A program made the translations under genes and the position numbers. This document shows, one piece after another, positions 23,481 to 63,655 of a stretch of 64,000 bases of DNA; within the stretch, counting starts at the first letter, position 1, and the number at the start of each line of letters is the position of its first letter. The notes beneath the pieces were generated by a model. The model saw only the letters and a list, made by a program, of their open reading frames with translations. It did no database searches and was not told where the DNA came from. Source of the stretch: Bolinopsis microptera (taxonomy: Eukaryota > Ctenophora > Tentaculata > Lobata > Bolinopsidae); the NCBI RefSeq assembly GCF_026151205.1, contig NC_087073.1, positions 8,037,411 through 8,101,410 on the forward strand, read 5' to 3'.

Positions 23481-26400
23481 TTATTCGCATTGCAAAAACA
23501 CATCCTCTCCGTGACTACAATCGTCAACGAATGCAAACGAACATGAGCTCCATTCACCACTGCTACAGGCAACATCATCAAGAGTTATTTCGAGCCCCGC
23601 TTGAATGGCCCAGTTGTCACCGAATGACCAGCTCATCTGATTAAAGTATCCCATTTCTTTACAAATAGCATCAGCTGAGTTATCATCAAAACTATCGTCA
23701 CAAACTGTTCCTCCATTGCTGAGCAGTAACCCTAGAACTCCAGCACCGACTGCATCACCATTTTCATCTACCAGACTTAACACTGAAAGTTTGATTAGTG
23801 TTACTTTAAATGAAATTATAAAAATAACTCTAACAACAAGTCATAATCAAAATCAACTTTCTTAAGCAACTGAAATAGCTTTTAAGTTATTTCAGCTTAA
23901 AAACTAAAAGAGCTTAAAAACTAAAAGAACTTCTTGGATGCCGGCAATGAAATCTATGTGTGAAAGGTACTTTAACCTGGACATTCATTGAGTTTGCAAG
24001 GTTGAGTCTGAACCGCTTCCCCAACACAATCTGCACCACCATTAGCCGGAGCAGGGTTAGTGCAAGTTCTTGTTCTGCTTTGTTCACCTTCTCCACAATA
24101 AACTGAACATTCAGACCAATCTGGGTCTGTGTATCCACCGTCGACTAGATTTAAAAGATGTTATTATTATCTTGATATACTTGAATCAAAAACTCATGGA
24201 CCGCCAGTAACCAGATCTTTGGATCCTGGCTTGTCTCAACGATTCCAGAAAATATGAACCAAATCTTAGAATGAAACGAGAACAAGTATTCATGATCAAG
24301 AAACTAAGATAGACTCACCAACTCCTTCGCATTGTAGAAACACATCCTCTCCGTGACTACAATCGTCAACGAATGCAAACGAACATGAGCTCCATTCACC
24401 ACTGCTGCAGGCAACATCGTCTAGAGTTATTTCGAGCCCCGCTTGAATGGCCCAGTTGTCACCGAATGACCAGCTCATTTGATTGAAGTGTCCCATTTCT
24501 TTACAAATAGCATCAGCCGAGTTATCATCGAAACTATCGTCACAAACTGTTCCTCCATTGCTGAGCAGTAACCCTAGAACTCCAGCACCGACGGCTTCAC
24601 CATTTTCATCTACCAGACTTAACACTGAAAGTTTGATTAGTGTTACTTTAAATGAAATTATAAAAATAACTCTGATAACAAGTAATAATTAAAATCAACT
24701 TTCTTAAGCAACTGAAAAAGCTTTTAAGTTATTTCAGCTTAAAAACTAAAAGAGCTTAAAAACTAAAAGAACTTCTTGGATGCCGGCAATGAAATCTATG
24801 TGTGAAAGGTACTTTAACCTGGACATTCATTGAGTGTGCAAGGTTGAGTCTGAACCGCTTCCCCAACACAATCTGCACCACCATTTACCGGAGCAGGGTT
24901 AGTACAAGTCCTTGTTCTGGTTTGTTCACCTTCTCCACAATAAACTGAACATTCAGACCAATCTGGGTCTGTGTAACCACCGTCGACTAGATTTAAAAGA
25001 TGTTATTATTATCTTGATATACTTGAATCAAAAACTCATGGACCGCCAGTAACCAGATCTTTGGAATCCTGGCTTGTCTCAACGATTCCAGAAAATATGA
25101 ACCAAATCTTAGAATGAAACGAGAACAAGTATTCATGATCAAGAAACTAAGATAGACTCACCAACTCCTTCGCATTGTAGAAACACATCCTCTCCGTGAC
25201 TACAATCGTCAACGAATGCAAACGAACATGAGCTCCATTCACCACTGCTGCAGGCAACATCGTCTAGAGTTATTTCGAGCCCCGCTTGAATGGCCCAGTT
25301 GTCACCGAATGACCAGCTCATTTGATTGAAGTGTCCCATTTCTTTACAAATAGCATCAGCCGAGTTATCATCGAAACTATCGTCACAAACTGTTCCTCCA
25401 TTGCTGAGCAGTAACCCTAGAACTCCAGCACCGACGGCTTCACCATTTTCATCTACCAGACTTAACACTGAAAGTTTGATTAGTGTTACTTTAAATGAAA
25501 TTATAAAAATAACTCTGATAACAAGTAATAATTAAAATCAACTTTCTTAAGCAACTGAAAAAGCTTTTAAGTTATTTCAGCTTAAAAACTAAAAGAGCTT
25601 AAAAACTAAAAGAACTTCTTGGATGCCGGCAATGAAATCTATGTGTGAAAGGTACTTTAACCTGGACATTCATTGAGTGTGCAAGGTTGAGTCTGAACCG
25701 CTTCCCCAACACAATCTGCACCACCATTTACCGGAGCAGGGTTAGTACAAGTCCTTGTTCTGGTTTGTTCACCTCCTCCACAATAAACTGAACATTCAGA
25801 CCAATCTGGGTCTGTGTAACCACCGTCGACTAGATTTAAAAGATGTTATTATTATCTTGATATACTTGAATCAAAAACTCATGGACCGCCAGTAACCAGA
25901 TCTTTGGAATCCTGGCTTGTCTCAACGATTCCAGAAAATATGAACCAAATCTTAGAATGAAACGAGAACAAGTATTCATGATCAAGAAACTAAGATAGAC
26001 TCACCAACTCCTTCGCATTGTAGAAACACATCCTCTCCGTGACTACAATCGTCAACGAATGCAAACGAACATGAGCTCCATTCACCACTGCTGCAGGCAA
26101 CATCGTCTAGAGTTATTTCGAGCCCCGCTTGAATGGCCCAGTTGTCACCGAAAGACCAGCTCATTTGATTGAAGTGTCCCATTTCTTTACAAATAGCATC
26201 GGCTGAGTTATCATCGAAACTATCGTCACAAACTGTTCCTCCATTGCTGAGCAGTAACCCAAGAACTCCAGCACCGACGGCTTCACCATTTTCATCTACC
26301 AGACTTAACACTGAAAGTTTGATTAGTGTTACTTTAAATAAAATTTCAAAAATAACTCTAACAACAAGTTATAATCAAAATCAACTTTCTTCAGCGATCA

Positions 26401-29400
26401 AAATAATTTAAACTAAAAAACTCCTAGGAAGAAAACAATGAAACTTATGTGTGAAAAGTACCTGGACATTCAAATAATGTGCAAGGTTGAGTTTGAGACG
26501 CTTCCCCAAAACAATCTGCACCACCATTAGATGGAGCAGGGTCAGTACAAGTCCTTGTTCTGGTTTGTGCACCTTCTCCACAAGAAACTGAGCATTCAGA
26601 CCATTCTCCAAAATCAGTGTATCCGCCGTCGACTATATTTGAAGAATTTTATCATCATCTTGTTATACTTGAATCAAAAACATATGGACCTCCAGTTACA
26701 AAATATTTGGAATCCTGGCTTGTCTCAACAATTCCTGCAATTTCAATCAAATCTTGGATTGAAACCCGAGAATGTATTTATGATTAAGAAACTAAGATAG
26801 ACTCACCAACTCCTTCGCATTGTAGAAACACATCTTCTCCGTGACTACAATCGTCAACGAATGCAAACGAACATGAGCTCCATTCACCACTGCTGCAGGC
26901 AACATCGTCTAGAGTTATTTCGAGCCCCGCTTGAATGGCCCAGTTGTCACCGAATGACCAGCTCATTTGATTGAAGTGTCCCATTTCTTTACAAATAGCA
27001 TCAGCCGAGTTATCATCGAAACTATCGTCACAAACTGTTCCTCCATTGCTGAGCAGTAACCCTAGAACTCCAGCACCGACGGCTTCACCATTTTCATCTA
27101 CCAGACTTAACACTGAAAGTTTGATTAGTGTTACTTTAAATGAAATTATAAAAATAACTCTGATAACAAGTAATAATTAAAATCAACTTTCTTAAGCAAC
27201 TGAAAAAGCTTTTAAGTTATTTCAGCTTAAAAACTAAAAGAGCTTAAAAACTAAAAGAACTTCTTGGATGCCGGCAATGAAATCTATGTGTGAAAGGTAC
27301 TTTAACCTGGACATTCATTGAGTGTGCAAGGTTGAGTCTGAACCGCTTCCCCAACACAATCTGCACCACCATTTACCGGAGCAGGGTTAGTACAAGTCCT
27401 TGTTCTGGTTTGTTCACCTTCTCCACAATAAACTGAACATTCAGACCAATCTGGGTCTGTGTAACCACCGTCGACTAGATTTAAAAGATGTTATTATTAT
27501 CTTGATATACTTGAATCAAAAACTCATGGACCGCCAGTAACCAGATCTTTGGAATCCTGGCTTGTCTCAACGATTCCAGAAAATATGAACCAAATCTTAG
27601 AATGAAACGAGAACAAGTATTCATGATCAAGAAACTAAGATAGACTCACCAACTCCTTCGCATTGTAGAAACACATCCTCTCCGTGACTACAATCGTCAA
27701 CGAATGCAAACGAACATGAGCTCCATTCACCACTGCTGCAGGCAACATCGTCTAGAGTTATTTCGAGCCCCGCTTGAATGGCCCAGTTGTCACCGAATGA
27801 CCAGCTCATTTGATTGAAGTGTCCCATTTCTTTACAAATAGCATCAGCTGAGTTATCATCGAAACTATCGTCACAAACTGTTCCTCCATTGCTGAGCAGT
27901 AACCCTAGAACTCCAGCACCGACGGCTTCACCATTTTCATCTACCAGACTTAACACTGAAAGTTTGATTAGTGTTACTTTAAATGAAATTATAAAAATAA
28001 CTCTGATAACAAGTAATAATTAAAATCAACTTTCTTAAGCAACTGAAAAAGCTTTTAAGTTATTTCAGCTTAAAAACTAAAAGAGCTTAAAAACTAAAAG
28101 AACTTCTTGGATGCCGGCAATGAAATCTATGTGTGAAAGGTACTTTAACCTGGACATTCATTGAGTGTGCAAGGTTGAGTCTGAACCGCTTCCCCAACAC
28201 AATCTGCACCACCATTTACCGGAGCAGGGTTAGTACAAGTCCTTGTTCTGGTTTGTTCACCTTCTCCACAATAAACTGAACATTCAGACCAATCTGGGTC
28301 TGTGTAACCACCGTCGACTAGATTTAAAAGATGTTATTATTATCTTGATATACTTGAATCAAAAACTCATGGACCGCCAGTAACCAGATCTTTGGAATCC
28401 TGGCTTGTCTCAACAATCCCTGTAATTTGAACCAAATCTTGGATTGAAACCCGAGAAAGTATTCATGATCAAGAAACTAAGATAGACTCACCAACTCCTT
28501 CGCATTGTAGAAACACATCTTCTCCGTGACTACAATCGTCAACGAATGCAAACGAACATGAGCTCCATTCACCACTGCTACAAGCAACATCATCTAGAGT
28601 TATTTCGAGCCCCGCTTGAATGGCCCAGTTGTCACCGAAAGACCAGCTAATTTGATTGAAGTGTCCCATTTCTTTACAAATAGCATCAGCTGAGTTATCA
28701 TCGAAACTATCGTCACAAACTGTTCCTCCATTGCTGAGCAGTAACCCTAGAACTCCAGCACCGACGGCATCACCATTTTCATCTACCAGACTTAACACTG
28801 AAAGTTTGATTAGTGTTACTTTAAATAAAGTTATAAAAATAACTCTAACAACAAGTTATGATCAAAATCAACTTTCTTCAGCGTTCAAAACAACTTAATC
28901 TAAAAAACTCCTTGGATGAAAACAATGAAACTTATGTGTGAAAAGTAATTTAACCTGGACATTCAAATAGTGTGCAAGGTTGAGTTTGAGACGCCTCCCC
29001 AACACAATCTGCACCACCATTAGATGGAGCAGGGTCAGTACAAGTCCTTGTTCTGGTCTGTGCACCTTCTCCACACGAAACTGAGCATTCAGACCATTCT
29101 CCAAAATCAGTGTATCCGCCGTCGACTAGATTTGAAGAATTTTATCATTATCTTGGTATAGTTGATTCCAAAAACACATCGACCTCCAGTTTCAAAATAT
29201 TTGGAATCCTGGCTTGTCTGAACAATTCCTGCAATTTGAACCAAATCTTGGATTGAAACCCGAGAAAATATTCATAATCAAGAAACTAAGATAGACTCAC
29301 CAACTCCTTCACATTGTAGAAACACATCTTCTCCGTGACTACAATCGTCAACCAATGAAAACGAACATAAGCTCCAATCACCACCGCTACAGGCAACATC

Positions 29401-31601
29401 GTCTAGAGTTATTTCGAGCCCCGCTTGAATGGCCCAGTTGTCACCGGATGACCAGCTCATTTGATTGAAGTGTCCCATTTCTTTACAAATAGCATCAGCT
29501 GAGTTATCATCGAAACTATCGTCACAAACTGTTCCTCCATTGCTGAGCAGCAACCCTATAACTCCAGCACCGACGGTTTCACCATTTTCATCTACCAAAC
29601 TGAACCCTGCGAGATGGATTAATTTTATGAAAGAAATAGAAGTAATACTAGCACTCTAGCAGTTAAACTATCATAGTACCATGATAGCGCTGGCATGTGC
29701 GACGGTCCAATTTGTAGCTCCCTACGGTAACACTTCGAGCTGATACCTTTTTCTGAGGCGCCAGACACCGAATCGAAGGATCATGCTTCAACCGTTGTTC
29801 GGTATGCCACCACCCCGATCAAATCTTTCCGATAACCTTTAAAATTATACTCAAGCTTAAGTAATATGGTGTCATTATCTTATTATGAACTCATGATGAA
29901 CTCATACATTCTACCTGAGGCTGAATCCCTTAAAATATTTAGCAGACCCCTTCTTTCATCAAAATCCCGCAAGAAGACCTGTACCGAATATGAAAACAAT
30001 ATTTTTAAGGGCGATGGCTTTTTTTAAAGATTGGAGTTTTAGTGCTCTTCTTGATCAATTTATGTTAAATTCCTGTATTGATTCCTGTGCGGCAATGTTT
30101 TTTAGCAGTTCGTTATTAACCTCAAATGTAAAATAACTTATTCCACTTGATTTATTAATTTAATGTTAATTCGAAAGTTCTGATAATCAGTATTGGCATC
30201 CAATATGCTACTCCCAATTACTCGAACTACCTTTGAATATGGCCGGTTACATAAAAAGTAATCTCACCATGGCAGGATTGTTGGTTGCATCTCCTTGTCT
30301 CCTCATCTTCCCCCTCACATTCATTTCCTCCGTTCGCTGGAATGGGATTTGTACAGGTCTTACTCCTGCTTTGAGAACCTCCTCCACATTCAGCAGAACA
30401 AACCGACCACTCTCCAAAGTTACTCCATCCACCGTCGACTGTTAACAGATCCTTGTTTGTAAATTTAGAAACCACTGTCATTTGCTGTGCGGCAAGGACA
30501 AATCACAAAAGTAGATCGTGGGTTTAAGGTTAGTATTTTTTTTATAATTTTCATACATTGTTCTGTACCATAAAAGTCATAATACCCAACGTGTAAAAAA
30601 ACACATCCATTTGATTTATTCACTTAATATTAATTCAAAACGTCCTCATAATCAGAATGTGCATATAATATGCTACCACCGACTACTCGAACTATGGCTG
30701 GGTACATAAATAGTACTCTGACCTGGGCAGGGATCAGGGTTGCAAGTCCTCGACTCCTCATTTCCCCCCTCACATTCTTGTCCTCCGTTCGCTGGAATGG
30801 GGTTTGTACAGGTCTTACTCCTGCTTTGAGAACCGCCTCCACATTCAGCAGAACAAACCGACCACTCTCCCAAGTCACTCCATCCACCGTCGACTGTTAA
30901 CAAATCCTTGTTTGTAAATTTAGAAACCACTGTCATTTGCTGTGCGGCAAGGACAAATCACAAAAGTAAATTGTGAGTTTAAGGTAAGTATTTTAATTTT
31001 AATTTTCATACATTGTTCTGTACCATAAAAGTCATAATACCCAACGTGTAAAAACACATCCTTTTGATTTATTCACTTAATATTAATTCAAAACGTCCTC
31101 ATAATCAGAATGTGCATCTAAAATGCTACCACCAACTACTCGAACTACCTTAATATATGGCTGGTTACATACAAAGTACTCTGGCCGACCTGGGCAGGGA
31201 TCAGGGTTGCAAGTCCTCGACTCCTCATCTTCCCCCTCGCATTCTTGTCCTCCGTTCGCTGGACTGGGGTTTGTACAGGTCTTACTCCTCATTTGAGACC
31301 CTCCTCCACATTCAGCAGAACAGACCGACCACTCTCCAAAGTCACTCCATCCACCGTCAACTGTTGGAATATCAACTTTACAAGTGTAGTCACATTTCTT
31401 CAATATCTTCTCCACCTTCGCACACTTCTTCGTCTGCCTTCTCTTCAATTTGCCCTCTCCTGTAGCAGAACAGCCCTCTATTGTAGATTTGAAGCCACTG
31501 GCAAGGCATTTATCAAACTGTTTAACTTTTTTCCCTTTGCATTTTGCATCCACAACTGTCAAAATGAAAAGAGCTGCTGCGGCTAGCACAAGAGTTCGCA
31601 T
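23481..31601 (-). CDS. Secreted SRCR/TSP1 mosaic protein (10 TSP1, 8 SRCR domains)
   Basis: Eighteen exons join in one frame to a predicted 1,459 residues. Exon 31601–31190 holds a signal peptide (MRTLVLAAAALFILTVVDA), a basic six-cysteine N-terminal domain of about 60 residues and the first TSP1. TSP1 exons 30893–30723 and 30438–30268 follow. SRCR exons (306 bases each) then alternate with TSP1 exons: SRCR 29606–29301, 28797–28492, 27955–27650, 27112–26807, 26310–26005, 25467–25162, 24624–24319, and terminal 23782–23481 with TAA; TSP1 29125–28955, 28317–28150, 27474–27307, 26632–26462, 25829–25662, 24986–24819, 24144–23977. TSP1 signatures are GGWSDFGEWSVCSAECGGG and RTRTCTNPAP; SRCR signatures are GGTVCDDSF, DAICKEMG and LDDVACSSGEWSSC. 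There is no membrane anchor. Both families act in extracellular recognition and adhesion. All internal exons are symmetric (multiples of 3). The exact ligand is unknown. Confidence 0.85.
23977..29606. repeat. Tandem exon array, about 843-bp unit, higher-order A-A-B period
   Basis: Each unit is an SRCR exon, an intron, a TSP1 exon and an intron. Successive SRCR frames are spaced 843, 843, 802, 843, 842 and 809 bases. The short (B) spacings contain a TSP1 variant of 171 instead of 168 bases (FGEWSECSVSCGEG versus PDWSECSVYCGEG). A-A-B therefore occurs twice, with a period of about 2,488 bases (24296 to 26784, 25139 to 27627, 25982 to 28469). Even the introns are near-identical between units, so duplication or conversion is recent. 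Confidence 0.85.
30210..31370. repeat. Tandem TSP1 exon duplication in the 5' half of the gene
   Basis: Three TSP1 exons with their flanking introns repeat at about 450-bp spacing. Shared flanks include ACTACTCGAACTA, TGATAATCAG/ATAATCAGAATGTGCAT and CTTGTTTGTAAATTTAGAAACC. This is a second, independent duplication within the same gene, with a TSP1 sequence type different from the SRCR-linked ones. Confidence 0.7.
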
Positions 31602-34992: not shown

Positions 34993-35101
34993 TACGTGTC
35001 GAGCTAGAGTACGTGTCGAGCTAGAGTACGTGTCGAGCTAGAGTACGTGTCGAGCTAGAGTACGTGTCGAGCTAGAGTACGTGTCGAGCTAGAGTACGTG
35101 T
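34993..35101. repeat. 17-bp minisatellite, 6.4 copies
   Basis: The unit TACGTGTCGAGCTAGAG repeats without interruption from 34993 to 35094, then a partial copy. Related text (GTCGAACTAGAGTGCG) occurs near 53511 and 53596. Confidence 0.9.
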
Positions 35102-49204: not shown

Positions 49205-52200
49205 TTACAAGTGGACTGATTCATCATTACGACGGTAAGTAATCACTCTATTTGTCTCCCTCTCTGACGTTTGGTTCTTCTTTATTTCTTTCTGAGTGTT
49301 CTCAAGCTTAGGAGTGTTCTCAAGCTTAGGAGTGTTCTTAGGAGTGTTCTTAGGAGCTCGGCTTGATGTTGCTGGGGTTCTCTCTTCTTTACCTGAAAAC
49401 TTGTTTGTCTCAGAAATATCAATCTGGTTATGCGAGTTCCGACTGTAGCGCTGAACGGCAAAAGACTCACTTTTCTTTTCTTTATGTATCACTGCTTGAC
49501 TAGAGTTTTCACAGCTTCGTCCATTCTGACTATCAGATTTTGTCGTTGGTCTGAGATTCCGAGTTGACAGACCGACAATGCTGGCTACTTTTCCGAAAAT
49601 ATCAGAAGCTAAGTTACTGTACAAAACAGGGTTCATAACAGAGTTCAAGGGCAAGACAACAATTGACAGGACGGGGTAAAGAGGTGTAGCATCGAGCATG
49701 GAAAAAGAGTGCAGGAAGCATATTATTACAAATGGTATCCAACAGCACAGATCTGTGATGATTATGACAGTGATCTTTCTGTTTAGTCGACTTTGTTTAT
49801 CTATCTGAACGCGATCTGCATTGCTGAATTTCTGGACAGCCTTTCTCGATTTCCTTAATATCGTGGCAACCATACCATATGATACTACGGTTAATGATAC
49901 GCAAAGGAAGTTTATCCCAAGGGTAAGCCACACAAAAACTCGTTGGGGATCGTCCTTGTTGACAATGTACTTAAAGAGGCATACACCATCATTTCCGTAA
50001 AAGTCTAAGGTTTTTCGTTTTATACCCCCATAGTCATTAGAAAACATGCTGTCTACCAAATCATTGATGAGGTCCCAGGAGGGAAGCTGTTCCAGGCCAG
50101 CTATTCTTCCAAAATACTCTCTGAATATGTCAATGTGATCTTTCTTAGTGACAACTCCAGAAAACAACTTGTTGGTTTTCTCATACACCAGGCCGTTTAC
50201 AAATACATCCTGGCACCAAGGAAGTAATGGCACAGCAGCAATTGCTATTGAAAGACTATAAATACCACCAAGCAACAGCAACTGCTTACATTTAAATTTA
50301 ACTGACGCTTTTTCTCTTGCTATGAATATATTCTGCAAGTCGATAATTCTCATCACACTAAGAGTGGTGACGGAAAAAAGGGACAGCTGAGATCCAACTG
50401 TGCTAAGGATGCCAATAACAGAACAAAATCTACTTGATTGCCATTCTATCTGAGATAAGCAGTATCCTTTGCCGTATCGTAGGTCAGTTATTGCCAGGCA
50501 TAGCAGGTATATTCCAATCGCCAAATCGGCTACCCCAATAGCCGTAACAAAGACTTGATTTTTGAACGACGGTTTGGTGCAGTTTTTCTTCCAAATGACG
50601 CTCATATTATTCCCAATTGATAGTAGGTTAAGGAGAACTGCAGTGCCCCCAAATATCCAGGCAACGATTTTCAATGGAATACTGTTTAAGATTTCCTTGC
50701 CACAGAGACTATTACATTCATCAGAGAAATCAAAGCAGTTGATAACACCATCACACATCTGGGAAACCGCCACATAACTGTTATTTATGCACTTGAAATG
50801 ATTTGAGCAGTCTCTTTCATCAGAGCCATCGCCACAATTATCTGCCAAATCACAAACCTGCTTGAACTCTATACATCGATTGTTCTCGCATAGAAAATAA
50901 TCATTTTGGTAACCATGACGTTCTGAAGTGGCAAATGTGAGACTGTCTGGGCCGAACATTGCAATAACCCTGTTACTGAACTGGCCAGGACACGAGGAAT
51001 GTTTCAGCTGTCTTGTGAGAGGGCATTTGCCTTCGTTGCACTTACCCGAGCAACTCATGTACACATAATGTTCTCCATAGAAATATCCACACTCTTGGTT
51101 GCTAACATCAGGTATTCTTAATTTGGGGAAATTAGTTCTCCCTACAAAAGTGTTGGTTTGGGAGACAAAGTCAGCCTCTTTGCACGAGATATTCATGTGG
51201 TGCCGAATGTTTTCAAGTCCTGGCAAGCAGAACGAGATACCGACCTCCATTTTAGAATTTTCAGAACTTTTAACTCTGACAGCTTCATGGTGTGCTGGCA
51301 CTGCAGAATGAGAAATTTCACAAATCTTATTCTCATTTCCGCATGTTTCCACTTTATCACACAGCTGCTCTTGCTCGATGAAGGTCGCTCCACCTCCAGG
51401 TGAAGGACACAAAAACACTTCTGAACAGCTCGAACCATAACTTTTATATCTCAAACTAGGACCACTACCACATGTCTCCCAGTCTTGGAGCTCATCTTCG
51501 CCGTTCATGCAATCAATCACCCCATCTTTAATCCAGCTCATGGGGAAAGTTTGAAAGTTTGTCTCCTCTCCGAACCTCCTATTACACACTCGTGTGCTTT
51601 TTGTGGCACACAGAGACGTTAGTTCATCATTTCTGTCGGGACAATCAAACTTTTGGTCGCAGAGTTTATGTTTGTGAACATGGCAGGAGGATGAAACAGT
51701 AACACACTTATTCTCCATCCCGTCATCGCAGAGGTCTGGAAGAACTCTGTATTTTGAAGTGTCAACCCCTGTTCCGTCTGAACATGTCACATAATTTGAA
51801 ACGGTTGATGGGTAACCGTCTATAAGGCATCTGCCCGCGACTCTGGAAGGATCTGAACAGTTGGTCTGATCGCGTCCATTTTCACACAGAGCGACATCAA
51901 AGGAAGCTGCGTTACCAGCAATAGTACGTGCTGAACACCGAGTAACCTCTAGCAGGGGTAGCTTTATTTTCCGTACTGAATCAAGATAGCAGTAATCAGT
52001 CTCATTTCCGCAAAGAAGACCTGGCTCTTTGAGGCAATGTTTGTAATTATTAGCCCCGATTAGACAATTCATGCCGATCGGTTGTACGTAACGCGCTGTA
52101 GTGTTGCAGTATATTCCGTAGTTGAAGCCATTACAGGAAGCTTCATCCTCACATTCATTTTCCCAATGACAATACCCATCACAGATGAGGTCGCTGCTAA

Positions 52201-52835
52201 CTTCTTTACCCGAACGCATCTTCACGAAATCTCTCGAACAACTTTCGTCGTCTTTCCTAAATTCTGCAAAGTTTTCACAAGTCATCATGTTTTGGCAGGA
52301 AAGCCACTCTTCGCACGACTGGGAAGTGTAGAGTGTCGGGATGTGCAATAGAGCATCAAGCCCATCATTTTGACAAAGACAACCACAGAAGGTCTTCTCA
52401 TCATTGGTTATTTGTTGGTAGGTTTCTTGAAGCCCACACCCCTGGTAGTAATGGGGATCATTGGAACAGATACTGCTGACTGTTTTGAACTTTGTCCAGC
52501 CGAAATACCGTGGAGGGTAGATTTGATAGTACTCATCTGAAAACATACACTTGAACAGGGACGGATCCTCCTCACATGTGTATTGCAGGAAACCATTATA
52601 CTCCTTAACTTTAGTGGTACAAACAACTGAAATATAAACCAGGTCAAAGTATATAATTATTATTGGTCACGTCACTTGTAAATGTAAACTGCAAAATCGA
52701 TATTAAAATTATTAGCAGTTTTTTTAATCTCTAAAAATTACCCGACTGAAGCTGAGAATAAGAGAAAGGTTCATCAGCAGCTGCCACGACCAGTAGAGGA
52801 AGACATAAGAACAGAAGTACCATAGAAACACACAT
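49205..52835 (-). CDS. LDLa-rich rhodopsin-type GPCR (relaxin/LGR-related 7TM)
   Basis: Exon 52835–52742 encodes a signal peptide (MCVSMVLLFLCLPLLVVAAA); exon 52626–49205 joins in phase, giving 1,171 residues. The ectodomain of about 640 residues is cysteine-rich, with two classical LDLa modules just before the membrane (CIEFKQVCDLADNCGDGSDE and VSQMCDGVINCFDFSDEC) and several weaker ones upstream (LICDGYCHWENEC, KLCDQKFDCPDRNDE, DGVIDCMNGEDE). LDLa modules bind calcium through their acidic residues. TM1 follows CGKEILNS; TM2 has VADLAIGIYLLCLAITDLRY, which resembles relaxin/glycoprotein-hormone receptors (RXFP/LGR). DRY is replaced by MRI, and NPVLY in TM7 is present. I see no leucine-rich repeats, unlike RXFP or GRL101-type receptors. 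The cytoplasmic tail holds the repeat KNTPKLENTPKLENT and ends VHL, a possible class II PDZ ligand. Ligand unknown. Confidence 0.87.
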
Positions 52836-53911: not shown

Positions 53912-55605
53912 TCACCCATAACTTCTCCAAAGGCGTCTATCATGAGCTTTGTACACTAAATCGTTGAAATTACTTAAACTAAATCTTTTATTTACAATCA
54001 CAATAATTTGTTTTGTCATAATGTCTTTTAATAATAAATCAAATAAATTTGAACGAGGTCTGCCCCTCCTTCCTTTGTAGTCAAAACATCCTAAACATGC
54101 AAATCTGAAAGATAAGAAGGCGGGAGTGTCATCACCGCTTCTGAGAACGTGCCCAAGCATCTTCCATCTTGCTTTCTTGATCCTTTCAGTAAGGGGTCTG
54201 ACATTACATCTCTTATATAAATTCTCGTTGCTGATAACCGTAGGCCAATAGGTGTTGATTATCTGTCTCAGATGCTTCCTTTGAAGAACGTCGACAGATG
54301 CCATTACGGTTTCAGGAGCAGCCCAGCTGCTACAGTTATACAACAACACTGAAGTGACAAGAGCTTCGTACAGCTTCAGCTTTCTACTCTCACTGATCTG
54401 AACAGAACTATTCAACCAGACTTTCTTGTAGGTGTAGAAGGCAACATTGGCTTTGTTGCGTCTGTTGACAATATCTCTTTCTGAACAGAGCTTTGATCCT
54501 AATAGCACTGACTCTCGCCACTCTTCATCTCCTCTAATTTTATTGCCATGGGCATCTAAAGCATCTGTATCTGCCAAATACACTCTTGTAAACACCGTCT
54601 TTGATTCGTTAACAAAGAGACTCCAATCCTTTAGTATATCACTGGCAATCTCTAGTATCTTCACCAGGCTCTGACCATCTTCACTCAGAAGCTCAGCATC
54701 GTCAGCATAGGCGGACTCTAACGGGAGGCCTCTATCAGAGACTGGGGGGTTCGGTCTAGGAATCGTGACACTGATCACGGCTCTGATGTGATTCAGGGCA
54801 CCGGCAAGGGTCAATGTAAACACTTTACCTGCCAGACTGTCTCCCTGGTAAGCGCCAATATTAATCACAAATTCACCAGACTCAGATCTGTTGACCGTCA
54901 CCTTGAGCTTTGTATTTGAGAGGAGGTACTGAACTAGGCGAATGTCGTCTCTAGAGCATCCTGCATCAATGAGGAGGTTGATGATGGTCTGTCTGCGGAT
55001 AGTATTAAACGCAGCAGTCATGTCAATGTTGATTTTACTATACTCAAACTCGCGCCTGGTAACCACTGATGTCAACATTCTCTGAGACCATACCAGTTCA
55101 GCGCAACTGCGACCCTGCTTGTATGCCGCCTGCCAAGGTCCAGTGTACATATCAACGTGGTAATTGATTCTGTTCAAGGCTACGAGGGATAAGACTTTTC
55201 TAGTTCCATTTAGCAATGTGAGGGGCCGGATAGACTTTATCGGACCTCGGGGTTTTCCTGGCTTCTGAAGGGGTGTCAGGATATACCTTCTCCAATAGCT
55301 GGGATGTATGTGTTGGTCTCAAAGGAGAGATTATAGATTCTAGCCAACTCACAGTGGAGGGGATATCCAGCAGCTTTCATTAGCTCATTAGGTATACCGT
55401 CAGGGCCACACGCTCTACCGGATTTCAGCTTCATAACAGCACGGCCAACTTCTTCAGGTGTTATGGGACAGAGGAGGCTTCCAGGAGGGTCTATGAATGC
55501 TGGGAGGTGGGGTTCATCTTTGTCATTGAACTCATTATTAAAGTATTCTTTAATAGCTACTACGGAACAGTCGCATTTAAACCCTGGTAACCCCGAAGTT
55601 AACAA
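53912..55605 (-). pseudogene. Non-LTR retrotransposon reverse transcriptase, 5'-truncated and frameshifted
   Basis: Two frames together form one RT: 55605–55276 carries 'RACGPDGIPNELMKAAGYPL', and 55216–53912 carries motif A (KINIDMTAAFNTI), motif B (AYQGDSLAG) and catalytic motif C (SAYADDAELL). The C-terminal domain has RWKMLGHVLRSGDD and GRRGRPRSNLFDLL. They are split by a frameshift near 55300; the second frame extends back through YWRRYILTPLQKPGKPRGP. The polymerase core after the frameshift is intact over 434 codons, so the copy is fairly young. The N-terminal endonuclease and any ORF1 are absent. It is a different lineage from the LINE at 19–20 kb. Clade not assigned. Confidence 0.85.
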
Positions 55606-56213
55606 TAATAATCGAATTCTTTTTTACTAGCCTGTCACAATAGATTTTACCATCGATGATTGAATTAAGCTACTTTCATATCCTCAAGGCTCTTGATCGT
55701 AAAAATTTCAAACCCTTAGCGAGTGATTTAGTGGAAATTAAATAATAAATTACTAATGAAGTTGACAAAACTAGAAAATATAAATTTTATAGTGATATTA
55801 TTATTATTTTGCTCGTCCAAAATTTATCACACGACTTGGATTTTTACAGTTTTTTACCCGGGGACCGCCCGGACCACAGGCTAAGTGTTCATAAACACAA
55901 TGAATGAAGATATGGCGAATGAAGATATGGCGGAATGACAGACTGAGCGCCGCCCAGTAGCGGTTTTGCAGACGGAGCTGAACATATCCCTGACCTGCAG
56001 GTGACCTCAACCCGTAAACCATAAACAATCCAACTTGCGTTTTACTAAACCAAAACATTTGTTGTCCACGAATCCTCTAGGAAGCATGTTTATTGTTTAC
56101 AATTACCCTACTTCGTTATCATGGGGTAATGCTGATTCGAATCCATCCGAAATACATCGAATGAAGTTACTTTCATACTCTCAGGGCCTTTTCTCAAGAA
56201 TTTTATTGAATTT

Positions 56214-62192: not shown

Positions 62193-63655
62193 CTGGGGGT
62201 CCTTTCCGAAATGAAACTTAGTAGTAAATATTGCTTAGTTTTCCCTTTTTTGCTAAAATCCGTTCCGAAAACCAACTTAAGTAACAAAGTTAGCAAATTT
62301 TCAAGCAAAATTTTTGAATTAAGTTTTTACTTCGATTTTTGCTTAGTTTCAACTTAAGAGCTATTTTTTGCTTAAGTTGCTTCCAATTTTTCATTTTTTG
62401 CTAATTTTTTTAAGTTTGGTTCAGACCAACCTTAGAATTGTAAGTTTTTACTTAATATCCCAAATTTCATTGCAAGTTGATTGAATTGAACAATTTGAAC
62501 AATAATTCAGTGTTCATAAAAGGATTTTCTTTAGATTTGTTTGGAGAGGCGAATCATACACAGTTTAGGTTCTAAAAAGGATTTTAAAGTTATCATTTAT
62601 CAAGAAAAGTAATCATTAACAATATTATTCCGTACATTAATTCCTTTTCTGATTTCTTCCGCCTCGTTCGGCTGCCTTGGAGGGGCAGCCCGCCGGGATT
62701 GTTCAGCTTGCTCTTCTCACATATCTTGAAGAATGTGTGGCAAAATTTCTGGATCACGAATTCTCCTATTACGGCAGTAATTATGAAATACAACGCATGC
62801 AGCAATGATATCGCAACGAATTTTTGGTTTGAATTGCAAACCATCCGTATTTTTACTGTCAAGACATCGCCATCGTGATTTGACCACCCCATTTGTTCGT
62901 TCTATAACACATCTACACCGTTTCAAGGACTTATTGAACCTCTTCTCTGCCTCTGATTTTGGATCCAGAAATGGAACGATAAGTCTCTCACGCAACGGGT
63001 AACCCGAGTCGCCAATTAGCCAACCGGATACAGATGAAGTGCTGAGATTTCTGCAAATTTTGCTCATTTTCCAGACCGTGCTGTCATGAACTGACCCAGG
63101 CCACCGTATAGAACATGCTGTGATGACCATATTCATGTCACATACGTAATATATAAGTAAAGTCTTCTCTTCAGAAGTAAACGAGCGTGCTCTTTGTTTG
63201 CCGGCCACACTCATGGTAACACTACGAGGAAACAAATTAGGGAGATTCAGATTTAATCACAGTGCAGATTCGAATTTCAATAGTGAATATTAGAACTCAT
63301 AAAATTAACATTTATTGATTATCAAATTCAAATTGCGATATCAAATTCAACTCAACATGAATGGTTATATTCATGATAACAAAATCCATGGCACACCAAC
63401 AAGCACGTGATCGCACCAACAAGCAATTGCATGACGAATTACGTCATCAGAGTTTTTGCGCGCATTTTAGGCGCGCATTTGTTACTTGCACGTGTAAATT
63501 TGTAACTTTGACGCGTTTCGTAAACACTTTAAGTAAAAGTTTCGGAAACGCTGCACTTTACTTAAGTAGTGTTTCGGTAAGGACAAACATGATTTTACTT
63601 GGCGATTACTTAAACTAAGTAAGAACTTAAGTTTCATTTCGGAAAGGACCCCCAG
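62193..63655. mobile_element. 1.46-kb Harbinger-type transposon with perfect 28-bp TIRs
   Basis: CTGGGGGTCCTTTCCGAAAT plus GAAACTTA at 62193–62220 is an exact inverted match to 63628–63655. A Harbinger-type transposase half lies between. No matching 3-bp target duplication is visible with these borders (left flank GAT, right flank GCG). Subterminal AACTTAAG/TTAAGT motifs recur at both ends. Confidence 0.8.
62717..63235 (-). pseudogene. PIF/Harbinger (HARBI1-like) transposase, C-terminal half
   Basis: The frame holds IRWPGSVHDSTVW, 'WLIGDSGYPL' with the second catalytic D, and RCVIERTNGVVKSRWRCL with the catalytic E, then VVFHNYC. Order and motifs match the DDE_4 core of Harbinger transposases. 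The upstream half with the first catalytic D (usually in a 'DGTH' motif) and the helix-turn-helix region is not found within the element, and there is no Myb/SANT-like second gene. The remaining 172 codons are open, so the loss may be a recent internal deletion. It cannot be autonomous as it stands. Confidence 0.82.

Follow-up and report, generated by a model that had tools for sequence, protein, structure and literature searches.

Alternating SRCR and TSP1 exons form a predicted ctenophore gene that may encode a secreted multivalent agglutinin

Whether a long run of SRCR and TSP1 exons in the ctenophore Bolinopsis microptera belongs to one gene, and what kind of protein such a gene might encode, are the questions raised by the locus described here. 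The window, that is, the whole stretch of 64,000 nucleotides analysed (contig NC_087073.1, positions 8,037,411 to 8,101,410), was searched by script for phase-1 exons lying between AG and GT. In agreement with a ctenophore source, one iGluR encoded in this genome has ML032222a iGluR of Mnemiopsis as its best PDB hit; another iGluR was nearest to vertebrate kainate receptors and was uninformative as to phylum. The predicted gene consists of 18 exons on the minus strand, running from window position 31601 to 23481, which join in frame to a coding sequence of 4,380 nt (1,459 residues and a stop codon) with no internal stops. The length of each of the 16 internal exons is divisible by three, and exons 2-18 are all entered in phase 1. 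The 18 symmetric exons and approximately 1,459 residues reported in an earlier note were thus recovered by the exon search and in-frame join; the interval given there, 23481-31601, is that of the coding sequence, and the strand, absent from that note, is minus.

The encoded protein begins with a signal peptide and a basic six-cysteine N-domain, continues with three TSP1 repeats and seven SRCR-TSP1 pairs, and ends with an SRCR domain and the stop codon, an order which had been proposed before and which is confirmed by the translation and the Pfam counts. Exon 1 (412 nt, 31601-31190) encodes the signal peptide (residues 1-19, MRTLVLAAAALFILTVVDA; 31545-31601), the N-domain (residues 20-80; 31362-31544; placed by translation, family comparison and an AF2 model) and TSP1 #1 (31190-31361; exon script, translation and Pfam). 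Exons 2 to 17 were delimited by the exon script and translation. TSP1 #2 (exon 2, 30723-30893) and TSP1 #3 (exon 3, 30268-30438) belong, as TSP1 #1 does, to a leader class; exon 4 (29301-29606) encodes SRCR #1, the most divergent copy in the copy comparison, and exon 5 (28955-29125) encodes TSP1 #4, of the alternating class. The chain continues with SRCR #2 (exon 6, 28492-28797), TSP1 #5 (exon 7, 28150-28317), SRCR #3 (exon 8, 27650-27955), TSP1 #6 (exon 9, 27307-27474), SRCR #4 (exon 10, 26807-27112), TSP1 #7 (exon 11, 26462-26632), SRCR #5 (exon 12, 26005-26310), TSP1 #8 (exon 13, 25662-25829), SRCR #6 (exon 14, 25162-25467), TSP1 #9 (exon 15, 24819-24986), SRCR #7 (exon 16, 24319-24624) and TSP1 #10 (exon 17, 23977-24144). 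Exon 18 (23481-23782), placed by translation, encodes SRCR #8 and the stop codon without any tail. Unit comparison defines seven SRCR+TSP1 units, each 802-843 bp long, arranged in tandem (23783-29606), all on the minus strand.

Over the whole protein, 10 TSP1 and 8 SRCR stretches are recognized by Pfam. Residues 1-512 score 137.8 bits for TSP_1 (4 stretches) and 71.4 bits for SRCR (2), and residues 513-1459 score 228.9 bits (6) and 209.1 bits (6), respectively, all above the curated cut-offs of 21.6 bits for TSP1 (PF00090) and 26.1 bits for SRCR (PF00530); by Pfam score, the protein belongs to both the SRCR superfamily and the TSP1-repeat superfamily. Matches of residues 513-1459 to DUF4232, UPF0113, Peptidase_M43 and other families were set aside as weak scores summed over repeats, with no single stretch passing. 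In a 19-residue scan, hydropathy reaches its maximum of 1.99 at the first residues of the protein and is at most 1.23 elsewhere; the signal peptide was called from this peak and from the translation read by eye, and no membrane anchor was seen in the scan. The protein contains no N-glycosylation sequon in its 1,459 residues, and the N-domain (residues 20-79) has a net charge of +12 versus -210 for the protein body. The signal peptide, hydropathy scan and repeats are consistent with the previous suggestion of a secreted, anchor-free and multivalent product.

The same exon order is observed elsewhere in the genome. At two further loci, an N-exon and a leader TSP1 accompany an array in which SRCR and TSP1 alternate, with copy numbers of their own. 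The number of SRCR domains varies between loci, with 8 in the window gene, 5 at C3, 5 in the right-hand array at C2 and 4 at C2b. Because the identical exon order recurs at other loci, the gene structure is not a product of chance. The earlier note knew of no described protein with this layout; the layout proves to be that of a small paralog group rather than of a single protein, and a figure legend (Fig. 3c, PMC11797021) already points to TSP1-bearing SRCR proteins in Mnemiopsis leidyi. The genome-wide exon pattern caught 35 SRCR and 46 TSP1 exons, including only 2 of the 4 SRCR exons at C81, and in the two genome domain searches 150 candidates each were scored, out of 869 and 319, respectively, such that the TSP1 and SRCR counts in those searches are lower bounds. 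A gene for the N-domain and three TSP1 repeats might instead lie next to a separate gene for the SRCR/TSP1 array, as the longest intron (661 nt) separates exons 3 and 4, approximately 4 kb lie between the N-exon and array sides of both C3 and C2 right, and the N-exon was not found for the C2b and left-hand C2 arrays in the stretches read. However, exon 3 ends with a GT donor in the correct phase and without a stop, a leader-class TSP1 exon at C3 lies approximately 250 bp from SRCR #1 on the identical strand, leader TSP1 exons stand ahead of the C2 and C2b arrays as well, and the stretch L007 beside C2b holds 837 N, in which an N-exon may be hidden. Two adjacent genes are therefore highly improbable, and the prediction that the TSP1 and SRCR exons form one gene gains support from paralogs that keep the order and strand of leader TSP1, SRCR and alternating TSP1.

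Tandem duplication of the SRCR+TSP1 pair has produced very similar copies. Five of the seven units share 96.3-99.9% identity over exons and introns, with gap columns disregarded, and units U3, U5 and U6 are 99.4-99.9% identical to one another. SRCR #3-#7 are identical at all 99 amino-acid positions compared and are thus homogenized rather than diversified. Moreover, the SRCR copies of the window gene and the paralogous loci group by gene, which, together with the near-identical units, suggests that the arrays expand or homogenize inside each gene. As the units are nearly identical, their exact number rests on the assembly, and the resemblance of U3, U5 and U6 could reflect an assembly artefact concealing a shorter array. 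This explanation is unlikely, given that U1, U2, U4 and U7 are each distinct from every other unit, that the other loci share the organization with unit sequences of their own, and that the window contains no N. The dN/dS values for SRCR are 0.014/0.104 inside the window gene and 0.088/0.238 between the window gene and C3 (reconstructed as 873 aa and a stop, with the second leader TSP1 exon left out). Two close C2 genes give a ratio near 1 (0.035/0.038), and the N-exon pair of the window and C2 gives a ratio above 1 (0.123/0.109; few changes), indicating that constraint is not uniform.

SRCR domains of group A contain six cysteines, and those of group B contain eight and are encoded by a single exon. 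The window SRCR domains have the six cysteines of group A, yet each is encoded by an exon of its own, a group B trait, and the nearest PDB chains by sequence are PIT54, CD5L and CD163/M130, followed by DMBT1. Thrombospondins proper have a conserved thrombospondin C-terminal domain, which is not among the Pfam matches of either part of the protein; the protein ends at SRCR #8. All eight SRCR copies retain the motifs VCDD and LDDV, an acidic residue preceding the fifth cysteine and the E of GED, corresponding, by motif position and not by residue-by-residue alignment, to the DMBT1 cation-site residues D1019, D1020, D1058, D1059, N1081 and E1086, among which the changes D1019A and D1020A eliminate binding (PMC7043408). 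The window protein resembles DMBT1 (SALSA, salivary agglutinin, gp340) as a predicted secreted protein with many SRCR domains at regular spacing, tandem unit copies, differences in copy number and cation-site positions kept by motif. In contrast, its spacer is TSP1 rather than the Ser/Thr-rich glycosylated SID, it has six cysteines per SRCR and an N-domain of its own, and the CUB and ZP domains of DMBT1 are absent from the Pfam matches of both of its parts. The SRCR number of DMBT1 varies from 7 to 21, and a short form binds bacteria more poorly (PMC9038570). The M. leidyi proteins share the phylum and the domain pair; order, copy number and an N-domain are not described in the available text of PMC11797021. 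Cnidarians offer a further invertebrate case of an expanded SRCR repertoire in which domains are combined in unusual ways, and TSR and thrombospondin do not occur as terms in the main text of that report (PMC5119243).

The N-domain had been described as novel-looking. Consistent with that description, the window copy has no Pfam match at E<=1, neither this copy nor a 40-member profile matches the PDB up to E 10, and NCBIfam yields only two matches, each of one member (E 0.014 and 0.054), without a consistent pattern. However, the domain is not peculiar to this protein, since it matches 73 places in the genome at E<=1. We read 63 of these places (the window, two in larger loci and 60 fetched); the 10 left out had E values of 0.005 to 0.37 in the family search, and strong matches to other members were obtained for two of these (C8:10777338, E 5e-11; C7:19085698, E 1e-13). 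A later search added a further place (C6:2066901, E 2e-31). The full six-cysteine pattern is present in 51 of the 63 places. Of the 63, 35 are followed downstream by TSP1 and 11 by PAN-type repeats (L041, L042 and L058 are N-domain genes with PAN); individual members contain tectonin, B-lectin-like, WSC-like or GLEYA parts, the B_lectin and WSC matches being weak. The alignment and profile comprise 40 of the 63 members, 23 having been left out by eye (9 fragments and 14 near-copies or similar members). Net charge is negative in 3 of these 40, a count that speaks against a general role for N-domain charge.

A single-sequence AF2 model of the N-domain (pLDDT 67) predicts two helices, and Foldseek with this model returned 10 matches at E<=10, none at E<=0.001, and was given no weight. 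The two-helix model recalls CHCH and twin CX9C domains, as does the cysteine spacing, with C4-x9-C5 in 37 of 40 members and C1-x9-C2 in 12 of 40 (C-x10-C and C-x9-C in the window protein). PF16860 weakly matches 9 of 40 members (best E 2.3e-4) versus 1 of 40 Cys-fixed shuffles (best 0.45). In this one set of 40 shuffles, matches fell from 9 to 1 of 40 for CX9C, from 2 to 0 for CHCH, from 1 to 0 for NDUF_B7 and from 4 (best 0.012) to 2 (best 0.01) for Cmc1, stayed at 1 for COX6B and rose from 0 to 1 for Pet191_N; the likeness to CHCH-type families thus stems partly from cysteine spacing and composition. Two members reach 14.0 and 15.9 bits, below the Pfam cut-off of 26.4 bits for CHCH / CX9C. 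Unlike CHCH domains, the N-domain stands behind a signal peptide instead of undergoing mitochondrial import and has two extra cysteines. Since the shuffles reproduce part of the likeness, a true CHCH identity was reduced to an analogy.

Based on sequence features and the analogy with DMBT1, we propose, with a probability of roughly 0.5, that the gene encodes a secreted, Ca-dependent multivalent agglutinin that works like DMBT1 but was assembled independently, outside the DMBT1 family. Epithelial or gland cells would release the product into mucus or a surface matrix, where eight acidic SRCR domains may act as Ca-dependent heads that bind repetitive ligands, polyanions or glycans, on microbes, prey or matrix, the TSP1 domains may serve as stiff spacers holding the heads apart, and the near-identity of the heads would provide avidity rather than diversity. 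As a conjecture, the basic N-domain could pack the protein in granules or cross-link the acidic bodies after release. In Mnemiopsis, no candidate gene changed upon first exposure to Vibrio, and 12 SRCR genes changed upon re-exposure, 8 up and 4 down (PMC11797021). The missing CUB and ZP domains, the lack of N-glycosylation sequons and the uneven constraint argue against this proposal.

Developmental matrix roles are also known for SRCR and TSP1; therefore, the two domains do not imply microbial binding. A structural matrix or adhesive protein of the mesoglea, egg coat or tentacle glue, binding host matrix or a prey surface through SRCR and TSP1 without any immune role, is accordingly a possible, although less probable, alternative, consistent with an anchor-free, repetitive and acidic protein whose copies are not diversified. 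TSP1 (PF00090) and the propeller PF06462 are among the Pfam domains of Mnemiopsis colloblast candidates, but SRCR is not named among the colloblast domains in the available text, and the Pfam overlap of the candidates with known adhesives is not significant (PMC6278862). Matches to Tectonin and PF06462 share one reading frame with the N-domain in two of its genes, and a third locus has Tectonin approximately 500 bp downstream; however, Tectonin has 87 matches genome-wide and only these three N-domain loci are linked to it, which makes the link to colloblast glue weak. More tentatively than either the agglutinin or the matrix protein, we suggest that the N-domain represents an animal domain not described before, which has expanded in ctenophores, an exported CX9C-type helical hairpin that would cap a multivalent, mostly lectin-like secretome (TSP1, SRCR, PAN, tectonin, B-lectin, WSC and GLEYA), its charge packing acidic bodies in granules or cross-linking them on release and so making a phylum-specific mucus or glue, with the SRCR-TSP1 protein as its agglutinin.

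It has been argued that the ctenophore lineage is the sister group of all other animals (PMC10232365). The present results suggest that an agglutinin-like design, which combines an SRCR head with a regular spacer and takes its copy number from tandem exon pairs, evolved separately in this lineage. They also bring to light an unlisted N-terminal domain that recurs within one genome in dozens of proteins predicted to be secreted, and together these provide concrete handles on the composition of ctenophore mucus, immunity and adhesives.

The gene at 23481-31601 on the minus strand was modelled by a script scanning for phase-1 exons between AG and GT, which found the TSP1 exons and every SRCR exon except the last. 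Once the exons holding the ATG and the stop are joined to these, the chain has 18 exons, comprises 4,380 nt and encodes 1,459 residues with zero internal stops. Exon 1 (31190-31601, minus strand) encodes a signal peptide (by eye), the basic six-Cys N-terminal domain (N-domain) and the first TSP1; exons 2-17, on the same strand, are in phase 1, encode one domain each and have lengths that are multiples of three; and exon 18, also on the minus strand, encodes the final SRCR, ending in LQCE-stop. Pfam stretches over both parts of the protein numbered 10 for TSP1 (4+6) and 8 for SRCR (2+6). The exon chain and 1,459-residue product proposed in the earlier note were borne out as a gene model by exon scan, joining and domain counts. 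The absence of an anchor was likewise upheld, as no membrane anchor was seen because the hydropathy maximum (1.99) sits at the protein start and no second peak exceeds 1.23. The 1,459 residues contain 0 N-glycosylation sequons; 2,000 shuffles of residues 1-513 had a mean of 3.5, and 2.3% were without any. Within exon 1, the N-domain/TSP1 join reads CAACAG followed directly by TTGACGG, resembling the acceptors of later TSP1 exons, and looks as if it were the remnant of a lost intron. Elsewhere in the window, the minus strand carries open frames resembling, by eye, a retroelement reverse transcriptase (53915-55623) and a DDE transposase (62720-63256), and a 1,153-codon open frame (49208-52666); a perfect tandem repeat of 6.4 copies with a 17-bp period lies at 34993-35101.

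The N-domain, described earlier as novel-looking, kept this status in part: the N-terminal 80 residues of the window protein had zero Pfam matches at E<=1, and the mature domain (61 residues) had zero PDB matches at E<=10, but the module is widespread, with 73 places at E<=1 in the genome using the 78-residue N-part as query. When two other family members served as query instead, the searches found 57 and 58 places at E<=0.01, mostly at loci already recovered. Among 63 places read (60 fetched and three of the main group, at the window, C3 and C2), the complete six-Cys pattern was observed in 51, namely 48 fetched places by pattern and the three main-group places by eye. By pattern and eye, the N-domain leads directly into TSP1 in 35/63 (32 fetched plus window, C3 and C2), PAN-type repeats in 11, other tails in 7, and a short tail in 10. 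Pfam searches of 16 chosen members returned TSP1, Tectonin (E to 7e-54), PAN and GLEYA (3e-13), with B_lectin and WSC weaker, under their cut-offs, and zero matches for two of the 16 (L022, L069). Tectonin propeller repeats are linked in frame to the N-domain loci L013 and L015 and lie downstream of the L014 N-domain at C13:2544019-2544636. In six N-domain genes (L041, L042, L044, L047, L048 and L056), PAN-type repeats occur along with PEPQ or PEPTEP spacers, and L041/L042, L044/L056 and L047/L048 are, in the parts printed, apparent close pairs far apart in the genome. The L036 gene carries tandem repeats that are almost identical to one another; it has a PEPEPK linker and matches Pfam GLEYA (E 2.8e-13).

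In a 40-member alignment, C15, G19, C27, C43, C53 and C57 are invariant and E47 nearly so, and the first Cys occupies no single column. The spacings C4-x9-C5 and C5-x3-C6 were observed in 37/40 and 38/40 members, respectively, and the charge was positive in 37 and negative in 3 (mean +9.5). The window N-domain, modelled without an alignment, has two predicted helices (4-16 and 35-50; mean pLDDT 67), and Pfam CX9C matched 9/40 members (best E 2.3e-4) and 1/40 Cys-fixed shuffles. The domain is possibly a CX9C-like hairpin; membership in CHCH was not adopted.

The window is C2:8037411-8101410 of a 264.65 Mb assembly (232 contigs; C1-C13, of 15.2-26.2 Mb, make up 97.5%). Against PDB, one iGluR reading frame of this genome was closest to ML032222a iGluR and another to vertebrate receptors. 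The search of the assembly also revealed paralogous arrays, with layouts taken from tblastn in fetched stretches and exon-pattern scripts. With N for the N-exon (containing the first T where present), T for TSP1 and S for SRCR, C3 reads N-TT-(ST)x4-S with a stop; the C2 right arm N-TTTTT-(ST)x4-S, its stop not found within the fetched stretch; the C2 left arm, an inverted copy, TT-(ST)x3-S; and C2b TT-(ST)x3-S with a stop. C81, a contig of 31.7 kb, holds a partial array, and SRCR and TSP1 are intermixed in the more distant C7 cluster. By tblastn, ~4 kb separates the N-exon from the next TSP1 at C3, and at C2 right a gap of similar size comes after the third TSP1. The N-exon was not found within the stretches read at C2 left, C2b, C81 and C7; the stretch beside C2b (L007) contains 837 N, so this negative holds there for the sequence read and not for the locus. 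The two C2 arms (C2:17835181-17848882; L004, L005) are nearly identical, inverted relative to each other and arranged tail to tail, which reflects either a true palindromic duplication or an assembly effect. Thus the alternating plan is not unique to one protein, recurring with other copy numbers.

In trees, SRCR copies cluster by gene, with the two C2 arms in one group, and TSP1 copies form a leader class (before the array) and an alternating class (between SRCR), each across several loci, with C7 separate; by-gene clustering is imperfect in the alternating class, and the last window copy groups with C2 copies. Because the TSP1 classes span several loci, the order of leader TSP1 followed by alternating units probably predates the duplications, and the by-gene SRCR clustering indicates that units were expanded or homogenised within each gene afterwards. 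The seven window units (U1-U7, 802-843 bp) were compared without gap columns: U2, U3, U5, U6 and U7 share 96.3-99.9% identity, U1 and U4 share 94.3%, and these two share 87.6-90.0% with the others. At printed precision, U3, U5 and U6 have identical introns, and SRCR copies 3-7 have zero amino-acid differences over the 99 residues compared. As NG86 means over non-independent pairs, comparisons inside the window gene gave dN 0.014 and dS 0.104; those against C3 gave 0.088 and 0.238, C2 right against C2b 0.035 and 0.038, and the window N-exon against that of C2 0.123 and 0.109. Net constraint is therefore seen in most comparisons, not every one.

For Mnemiopsis, a figure legend in PMC11797021 already points to proteins that combine SRCR with TSP1. 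In the titles, opening lines of abstracts and cited passages searched, neither the (SRCR-TSP1)n layout nor the N-domain was found described; the claim of an undescribed layout therefore stands within that scope for the exact arrangement but not for the pair, and the N-domain family is more novel than the SRCR-TSP1 protein.

The window SRCR copies resemble those of DMBT1 (human salivary agglutinin) in keeping acidic residues at its cation-binding positions, matched by motif position and PDB alignments to PIT54 and CD5L, not by structure. According to PMC7043408, loss of either of two DMBT1 aspartates abolishes hydroxyapatite, heparin and streptococcal-protein binding. The common SRCR copy has a charge of -18, the TSP1 spacers -7 to -8 and the N-domain cap +12. 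We propose that eight near-identical acidic SRCR heads on TSP1 spacers would confer avidity for repetitive ligands, and that the cap against the acidic body might drive packing by charge. The DMBT1 design serves microbe binding, and unit number matters (PMC9038570). With a matrix or adhesive role as the main rival explanation, we infer by analogy with DMBT1 that the window protein may bind microbes.
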